A stretch of 64,000 bases of DNA, from positions 4,059,501 through 4,123,500 of the forward strand of contig NC_092631.1 of NCBI RefSeq assembly GCF_039555335.1. The letters are read 5' to 3'. Below are positions 51,501 to 54,500 of the stretch, piece after piece (the first letter of the stretch is position 1; every line of letters begins with the position of its first letter). The translations under genes were made by a program, and so were the position numbers. The DNA is from Amphiura filiformis (lineage: Eukaryota > Echinodermata > Ophiuroidea > Amphilepidida > Amphiuridae). The notes beneath the pieces were generated by a model. The model did not search any database. It was not told the DNA's origin and saw nothing but the letters and a program-made list of their open reading frames with translations.

Positions 51501-54500
51501 GACTAAGGCTACTGACAATAGCCTGGTAATCGACCTCTCTGTGTGTGAGTGAGCATGTATAGACTGCTTCCACGAGTGAGTGGAGCCAACCTATACGCTG
51601 CGCTATAGTTCGGCACATATAAAATCAGAATTTTTGTAAGTTTTTGAGTTCAAGACGCAAGCTTCTTTCTCAAGACGCAAGCTAACGACTATCATATCTG
51701 TTCAACACATATATTCAAGTGCAAGGAACAAAATCTGGCTTCTTTAGACTAAATAAATTACGGGAGATATTCACCATTTTCTACCCTGGTATCCAAAGAT
51801 TTATTGTCTGAATATCAAATTGTGCATAGCACATTCACATGTATCGATCCCGGGTATTCATTTCAATGTCTCTGCTGTGTAATGTAATTATTAACCGGGC
51901 GATGTCGGTGTGTGCCATAAGGTCTCCCTTCGGACAACCTAAAAATGTGCATTTGAAGCCCTATAGATTATCATGAGAATAATTGGGACAACCCACTTGC
52001 ATGTTGGCTTACAAAAAAACATATTTCAACCCCTTTATCTCACACAGAGTCTTTGAGAAAGAAATTGGTTTACACTGGTAACAAAATTTGTATTATGATG
52101 GACAATAAGTAGGCATGATCTAGGGATAAAGATAAATTAGATCATCCTTCATAGCTATTTCAAAGCCTAACTTGATTTTACTTCATGGAAAAACAGTGGC
52201 ATGATTTTACTTCACCTAATTACACATGCATCTTGCATACTGACTCTCATTTCAGACTTACCTCCTGATATGACAGCATCGGCACTGGTCAGCTCAGGAC
52301 GGTCACTCTTGGTCAAGGCCTGACCAACCCATGATGACTGGTCATTGCTAACTCCTGATTCAGGGGCTGAAAATATCAGTAATATGAGTCAACGCCAGTG
52401 TATTTTAGACAGAATCATATCAATGTCCATAACATAAGGCTGAACAAAAATGTTTATGTGTTTCCAGTACCATATGATGACCAATGAACAGTCTGTCGCT
52501 CGGCTAAATATTTTATTTTACAAAACATATATTCCCATGAATTGTAATAAATTAGCATGTTTATGAAAACAGTATTACATTAAACATATAGAGGCCGTCA
52601 GCGTGACGTCATATGCCGCCATCTTGTGGGTACACGCTGTGATGGTTGTTCGATCTCCATGCATGAGCAGCAAAATCATGTGCGATGTGCGATAACAGCT
52701 GCGTGGCAAGCTGCGCCCTGCGCGTAGTGTCCGACACATGAACACACAGATCATTTGTACCCACAAGATGGCGAAAGGCTGACAGCCTCTATTTTGAGGT
52801 TACAGGTTTAACCTTCATTACATTTTAAGCAAAACCAATTATTGGACATCATTTGGCACTTGAACCTCTCTATATTTGAGAAGTCTTGGATCAAGGAAGT
52901 GATACAGATATCATAGAGTGTACTAACAATTTCTGTACTATACTGGTTGAGTAATCACAAGACTCATGTCATGACTTACTTTAAAACACTATAACAACTA
53001 ACTATTTTCCCTAGCAATAAAGGTCCAAGACTACACCCTATTGACCCTTACACAATCATCTTAAAACATGGTTCCACCAGCAAAGTCCGTGTTGTGTGCA
53101 TACTCCTATCAAGCAGATGCTTAAATTACCATGTACGCTTGTAAAGTGCAAAGGGGAAGATTGTTTTGATGGCAAGATGGCAAATCCATGGAAAGAGTCA
53201 AGAGCATCAATAATGTGACCAGTCCCTTACCTGCTTCTGATGCAGCTGAGCCACCTTCTGCTGCTGAAGGCTCAAAAGATGTCCCCCTTACACTAAACAC
53301 CTTGATTGCATCCTTGGAACGTACTTTAGCAATGGCGTTACCTGTAATTGTAACTTAATATGTGACCAGTCCCTTACCTGCTTCTGATGCAGCTGAGCCA
53401 CCTTCTGCTGCTGAAGGCTCAAAAGATGTCCCCCTTACACTAAACACCTTGATTGCATCCTTGGAACGTACTGTGGCAATGGCGTTACCTGTAATTGTAA
53501 CTTAATATGTGACCAGTCCCTTACCTGCTTCTGATGCAGCTGAGCCACCTTCTGCTGCTGAAGGCTCAAAAGATGTCCCCCTTACACTAAACACCTTGAT
53601 TGCATCCTTGGAACGAACTGTGGCAATGGCGTTACCTGTAATTGTAACTTAATATGTGACCTGTCCCTTACCTGCTTCTGATGCAGCTGAGCCACCTTCT
53701 GCTGCTGAAGGCTCAAAAGATGTCCCCCTTACACTAAACACCTTGATTGCATCCTTGGAACGAACTGTGGCAATGGCGTTACCTGTAATTGTAACTTAAT
53801 ATGTGACCTGTCCCTTACCTGCTTCTGATGCAGCTGAGCCACCTTCTGCTGCTGCAGGCTCAAAAGATGTCCCCATTACACTAAACACCTTGATTGCATC
53901 CTTGGAGCGTACTGTGGCAATGGCGTTGCCTGTAATTGTAACTTAATATGTGACCAGTCCCTTACCTGCTTCTGATGTAGCTGAGCCACCTTCTGCTGCT
54001 GAAGGCTCAAAAGATGTCCCCCTTACACTAAACACCTTGATTGCATCCTTGGAACGTACTGTGGCAATGGCGTTACCTGTAAATGGAATTTACAACAGAA
54101 TACTGAATACAGAGGAACAGATTATGGTGGAACGTCTAGAAAAAGTCTTACAGTTCATCCATGGAGCAACCAGAAAAATCGATTTTCATTGTCTAAATCA
54201 ATATACACTAAGCCAAAAAAGAAACTTATAATTTTTCACAAGGTCATATCTTAAAATCCTGTCCATCAAAATTAACTAAAATTACACACAGGATTGCCTC
54301 AATACTCTACTCTAAACACATGTCAGCAACCAATCAGTTGGCCAACTGACACAACCGCTAAATGCACTGACATGGAACAACTTCCTGGACCACATTCACA
54401 GCCCTATTGGCACCTAGCAAAAGAAATCTGTGAGAATGATCTTGAATCACAGGTACAGCCAACAATTTTAACAACATTAAGTTAAAAACATTAAAGAGAG

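Follow-up and report, generated by a model that had tools for sequence, protein, structure and literature searches.

A sixfold tandem array of one ETFA exon in Amphiura filiformis, probably a young exon-bearing repeat from which a single copy is used

The Amphiura filiformis gene identified here as ETFA, which codes for the alpha subunit of the electron transfer flavoprotein (ETF-alpha), carries one 111-bp exon six times in tandem on the minus strand (54076..53231), at a strict 147-bp period, within a window of 64,000 nucleotides that represents the whole stretch of DNA analysed. The array is probably a young exon-bearing tandem repeat, of which one copy, most likely the first, enters the productive mRNA. 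This reading, which the initial annotation had put forward as the alternative to an isoform cassette, is the one that fits the evidence best, and it is favoured by the short spacers between the copies, by the stop codon that each retained spacer introduces, by the unequal strength of the acceptor sites and by the changes that the copies have accumulated.

The copies are numbered in gene order on the minus strand, so that copy 1 (exon 5 in the numbering adopted here, at 54076-53966, that is 53966..54076) retains the native upstream acceptor and copy 6 (53341-53231, that is 53231..53341) is followed by the native downstream intron, while copies 2 (53819..53929), 3 (53672..53782), 4 (53525..53635) and 5 (53378..53488) lie between them on the same strand. 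TRF calls the array at 53213-54082 with a period of 147, 5.9 copies, 97% matches and a score of 1663, and since the second-best tandem array in the window reaches a score of 435, a chance origin of the six-copy repeat is out of the question. All six copies are preceded by AG and followed by GT, and each runs from phase 1 to phase 1 and is open in the ETFA frame. The locus thus displays adjoining homologous exons that share their phase and are bordered by splice dinucleotides at all six copies, as in a tandem exon duplication, and head-to-tail, near-identical units, as in a minisatellite. The anatomy first described for this array, with its copy number, 111-bp exon, 147-bp period, open and symmetric 1-1 copies, GT/AG ends and membership in ETFA, is in this way borne out by the TRF call, the coordinates of the copies and the protein matches reported below.

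The array is flanked directly upstream by exon E4 (55766..55865) and directly downstream by exon E6 (52262..52366), and the remaining placed exons on the minus strand are E2 (58075..58224), E3 (56306..56470), E7 (51147..51298), E8 (50294..50440) and E9 (48530..48568), the last being the terminal coding exon with the stop codon. Joining E2-E4, copy 1 and E6-E9 yields a frame of 322 codons, from E2 onward, whose sole stop lies at its end; the 5' end of the gene with the start codon falls outside the placed exons, so that the flanking exons, previously said to be complete, are so from E2 to E9. In the 322-residue protein, Pfam recognises both the ETF domain (PF01012, E 2.3e-43) and the FAD-binding ETF_alpha domain (PF00766, E 9.6e-37). 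Moreover, a 211-residue stretch compared with solved chains has human ETFA (1efv) as the best of 14 matches (E 3.5e-93), and 231 of 316 aligned residues (73%) are identical to a human ETFA sequence. With both ETF domains and the closest similarity to mitochondrial ETFA, the gene is assigned by its sequence to the electron transfer flavoprotein alpha subunit. In the 1efv alignment, the first residue of the repeated exon corresponds to human G151, and its residues 6 and 19 correspond to human T156 and R169. A report on human ETFA disease variants assigns p.N152_V157del and p.V157G to exon 6 of the human gene and p.F144S to its exon 5 (PMC12625316), a placement that fits an exon boundary at the same position; the listing of the first two as disease variants also indicates that this segment matters in the human protein.

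Neighbouring copies are separated by only 36 nt, with spacers at 53930..53965 (copies 1/2), 53783..53818 (copies 2/3), 53636..53671 (copies 3/4), 53489..53524 (copies 4/5) and 53342..53377 (copies 5/6), all on the minus strand; the second and the third share a T to A variant. The composition of the spacer, as traced for the one between copies 1 and 2, combines 18 nt identical to the start of the native intron 5 with a final 6 nt identical to the end of the native intron 4, and the 12 nt in the middle match neither intron end exactly. These 12 nt may be either filler from the original joining or a sign that homogenisation has made the exons of an older array look young. Allowing up to 3 mismatches, the window holds no second occurrence of the final 18 nt of the spacer, which indicates that the junction did not arise by simply copying sequence from nearby. 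A retained spacer contains an in-frame TAA; therefore, when spacers are kept, only 6 of the 21 contiguous runs of copies are open, each of them a single copy, whereas exact removal of the spacers leaves all 64 ordered subsets of copies, including the empty one, in frame and open. The original claim that one or several copies preserve the frame consequently holds for any single copy, and for several copies only if the 36-nt spacers are spliced out. If the spacers are unspliceable, a productive mRNA that includes this segment would have exactly one copy, because a retained spacer adds a stop, and errors in spacer handling would be expected to lead to a premature stop.

The length of the spacers bears directly on whether they can be spliced at all, since the distance from the donor to any branchpoint within them would be under 36 nt. 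Minigene experiments with human HBB and EMD introns are reported to show a drop in splicing of about 90% or more when this distance falls below 47 nt, although traces of correct splicing persisted at 44 nt (PMC11291888), and a constraint of the same kind is described as enforcing the exclusive use of OGDH exons 4a and 4b (PMC7969005). The spacer accordingly falls below the donor-to-branchpoint distance of roughly 50 nt associated with steric exclusion, a threshold that derives from vertebrate introns (PMC7969005, PMC11291888). A human intron of 43 nt is reported to be spliced, in a study whose screen covered conserved human introns between 37 and 65 nt long (PMC4463651). Taken together, these thresholds make the 36-nt spacer very probably, although not certainly, unspliceable in this gene.

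Splice-site strength was scored with a crude matrix for mammals and ranked among the 3678 GT and 3418 AG dinucleotides that the window has on the strand of ETFA. By this measure, all six donors of the copies are equal and strong (score 11.4, 99.8th percentile of the GT sites), whereas the acceptors differ: that of copy 1 reaches 7.6 (97.3rd percentile among the AG sites), and those of copies 2-6 score 4.4 (88.9th percentile), the lowest values in the gene. The seven other placed ETFA acceptors score from 6.0 to 15.6 (percentiles 94.6-100), and six of them exceed the acceptor of copy 1. The pyrimidine runs point in the same direction, the longest being at most 2 at the internal acceptors and 4 to 10 at the other eight, including that of copy 1. 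Plain pyrimidine counts over 20 nt separate them less clearly, with 11 at the internal acceptors and 12 to 17 at the other eight, so that E6, with 12, is barely ahead. The splice sites, which had been described as intact throughout, are thus so at the donors, while the five internal acceptors are weak by this crude score. The exact branchpoint motif YTNAY is absent from the spacer, and the last 60 nt of intron 4 contain only one, with its A 3 nt before the intron end; given this near-absence at both places, the motif does not set copy 1 apart. The exon start itself resembles a donor in five of the six copies (1, 3, 4, 5 and 6), which begin AG/GTAACG, the slash marking the exon boundary (97.9th percentile); scored as a donor, the CAG/GTAACG boundary reaches 7.4, compared with 7.1 for the true donor of E7. 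Copy 2, whose first bases are GCAACG rather than GTAACG, lacks this property through a T to C change that removes the GT. The CAG/GTAACG boundaries are possible candidates for dual-use sites and, judged by their letters, would be compatible with recursive splicing.

The differences among the copies are few and give no sign, in the sequence comparison of the four protein versions, of useful divergence. Eight sites of the exon vary across the copies, four silently and four with a change of amino acid. The share of changing sites (4/8, against a neutral expectation of 72%) does not reject neutrality (P = 0.16 for four or fewer), and the silent share (4/8, against 28%) is higher than expected, not significantly so; on account of this excess, non-significant as it is, some constraint on the copies is possible. 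Copies 3, 4 and 5 encode one identical peptide, which leaves four protein versions over the six copies. Copy 5 equals the consensus, copies 1, 3 and 4 depart from it at one site each, copy 6 at two (T6K and one silent change) and copy 2 at four (R19M, S26A and two silent changes). Copies 3 and 4 are identical in the exon and, together with their preceding spacers, remain identical, so that they appear to be the youngest pair. After unequal exchange, middle copies tend to be better homogenised than those at the ends, and the pattern of divergence in the array roughly fits such a homogenised middle, although copy 1, an end copy, is also close to the consensus.

The amino-acid changes fall on positions of different conservation. 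Specifically, all 80 of the related bacterial EtfA proteins compared have R at the site of R19M in copy 2 and T at that of T6K in copy 6; these 80 are the best-scoring of at least 592 confirmed candidates, belong by title to gammaproteobacteria or close relatives and are not independent of one another. By contrast, A34T, the only amino-acid change of copy 1, affects a variable site of the linker at which three of the 80 have T. The solved chains, five alignments among the 14 matches with two of them being the same human protein, are less uniform: both human ETFA entries and 4kpu have R at the R19 site and T at the T6 site, 1efp has R and V, and 5ow0 has K and R, respectively. M at the R19 site occurs in none of the 80 bacterial proteins or the five solved-chain alignments, and the K of copy 6, judged from the same comparison, appears less clearly harmful than the M of copy 2.

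The sequence of events that we favour would begin with the tandem duplication of the ETFA exon together with at least 6 nt of the intron before it and 18 nt of the intron after it. Growth to six copies, by unequal exchange or by replication slippage, would then have produced a minisatellite with a 147-bp unit. The 36-nt spacers of the pre-mRNA would be too short for splicing as introns, and the stop that a retained spacer introduces would confine a productive full-length mRNA to exactly one copy. Copy 1 is the most likely to be used because its acceptor is the sole native one and outscores those of copies 2-6, and because a strong donor follows after 111 nt; copies 2-6 would leave as part of the next intron (intron 5). 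The surplus copies, presumably without function, would be drifting, a view suggested by the changes of copy 2 and possibly by those of copy 6.

Three other accounts of the array have to be set against this one. The joining of several copies in one mRNA, through splicing of the 36-nt spacers, would give an ETF-alpha with a longer domain I edge and linker; all 64 subsets would permit it in frame, and introns so short are described in some eukaryotes, including introns of about 25 nt in some ciliates (PMC5014332). Nevertheless, each spacer is shorter than a tenth of the shortest of the seven other placed ETFA introns (440-1725 nt), ends in a weak acceptor and remains below the mammalian donor-to-branchpoint limit; the discrepancy in length and this limit make the joining of neighbouring copies unlikely. 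Moreover, each extra copy would add 37 residues to a protein in which small lesions of the matching human exon are listed as disease variants (PMC12625316), and we regard this outcome as highly improbable. An assembly artefact, in which a short repeat was over-expanded or haplotypes were merged, is a natural concern given that young tandem repeats are often mis-assembled. It is difficult to reconcile with the private changes in copies 1, 2 and 6, with a spacer variant that spans two neighbouring units, with an exact period maintained across the 870 bp of the TRF call, and with a spacer end found nowhere else in the window, and it is therefore considered improbable, whether it concerns the array itself or its copy number.

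A true mutually exclusive array, in which several copies can be selected, one per mRNA, and exclusivity is imposed by spacers too short to splice, would supply up to four versions of ETF-alpha, by chance or by regulation. Several features are in line with it: the six equal and strong donors, the open phase 1-1 copies, the stop that makes single use the only productive outcome as long as spacers are not spliced, a silent share that is, if anything, above the neutral value, and the precedent of steric exclusion as a described mechanism (PMC7969005). Against it weigh the weak internal acceptors with no pyrimidine run longer than 2, the identity of copies 3-5 in protein and the alteration in copies 2 and 6 of residues fixed in the related bacterial proteins. 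A further mechanism of exclusive choice, competing RNA structure, was searched for by pairing the spacer that follows copy 1 with the flanking introns, and the pairing was no better than in shuffled sequences, of which 12 of 40 did as well for intron 4 and 37 of 40 for intron 5, in a coarse test of one spacer and 120-nt windows whose shuffles kept non-overlapping two-base blocks rather than exact dinucleotide counts. Within this test, no docking and selector pairing emerged between that spacer and introns 4 and 5. On balance, mutually exclusive use is rather unlikely. The isoform cassette preferred in the initial annotation, which had the anatomy right, gains no positive support: three of the six copies encode the same peptide, copy 1 differs at a single linker site that varies in homologues, and copies 2 and 6 replace residues fixed in the 80 related bacterial proteins; nor would such a cassette be new in kind as a way to vary a core mitochondrial enzyme, OGDH exons 4a and 4b being a described case (PMC7969005). 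A more specific version, in which the 36-nt spacers and the stops by themselves impose single-copy use, several of the six members are used so that as many as four forms of ETF-alpha arise, with differences in the linker and at the positions of human T156 and R169, and copy number varies between individuals, is regarded as unlikely. The young repeat with one copy in use thus remains the preferred explanation.

The surroundings of the array contain further repeats and gene fragments, while Rfam gave no match in the window at gathering scores. A 770-bp foldback, MITE-like element occupies 54206-54975 in ETFA intron 4, at a distance of 129 nt from copy 1 on its upstream side, with TA on both sides and the ends CACTAAGCC and GGCTTAGTG; the segment 54198-54984 aligns with its own reverse complement at 75%. 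An empty site at 12349-12681, which has one TA and matches the flanks of the element at 308 of 333 bases, indicates that the element inserted into a dispersed repeat, and related pieces of it are found at 13933-14330. The TA and such ends recall, as we take it, MITEs of the Tc1/mariner type. Long palindromes can stall replication, and the foldback element is a possible trigger of the exon duplication. Elsewhere in the window, TRF reports a further near-tandem duplication at 16150-16416 (period 141, 1.8 copies, 89% matches), and an exon of PDAP1/PP28, the casein kinase substrate phosphoprotein, lies on the plus strand at 36420-36647 (PF10252, E 3.1e-21). Lastly, fragments on the minus strand at 6917-8229 presumably belong to a long-form tRNase Z (ELAC2-like) gene, whose exons they resemble in their motifs; two of these fragments had no Pfam match at E 0.001.

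The six near-identical, closely spaced copies offer a natural test of how the spliceosome chooses between donors of equal strength and of how short a spacer can be and still be treated as an intron. They would, in addition, document a tandem exon array at its very beginning, prior to divergence or loss of the copies, and in a gene whose mis-splicing ought to carry a cost. Should a single copy be in use, the array is an ordinary, probably short-lived, neutral expansion. Among known systems, the kringle IV type 2 VNTR of LPA is similar in its tandem, near-identical, in-phase units with coding exons. The kringle units are spliced in and lengthen the protein, whereas the ETFA spacer is probably unspliceable and the extra units should stay out of the protein. 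In the gain of introns by tandem duplication, the duplicated piece holds an AGGT. That process likewise relies on a short duplication within a gene to make new pairs of donors and acceptors, as described for tandem genomic duplication (PMC4974935), and the donor-like AG/GTAACG start of five of six copies adds to the similarity; in ETFA, however, an entire exon was copied along with its adjoining intron ends. A further likeness is to OGDH exons 4a and 4b and to alpha-tropomyosin, in which adjacent homologous exons are separated by an intron whose donor-to-branchpoint distance is too short, so that one copy enters each mRNA, with OGDH being, in addition, a core mitochondrial enzyme (PMC7969005). 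Most tandem exon substitution events in humans are described as ancient (PMC9741552). In contrast to the OGDH and alpha-tropomyosin exons, the ETFA array has six near-identical copies, a whole spacer of 36 nt, no evident useful divergence and a hypothetical use of more than one copy. In the open-access papers searched, no report was found of a duplicated ETFA exon array or, more generally, of exon arrays so nearly identical. Tandem duplication of exons, steric exclusion and minisatellites that carry exons all belong to known kinds, and six near-identical copies with 36-nt spacers in a housekeeping gene are an unusual case of them.
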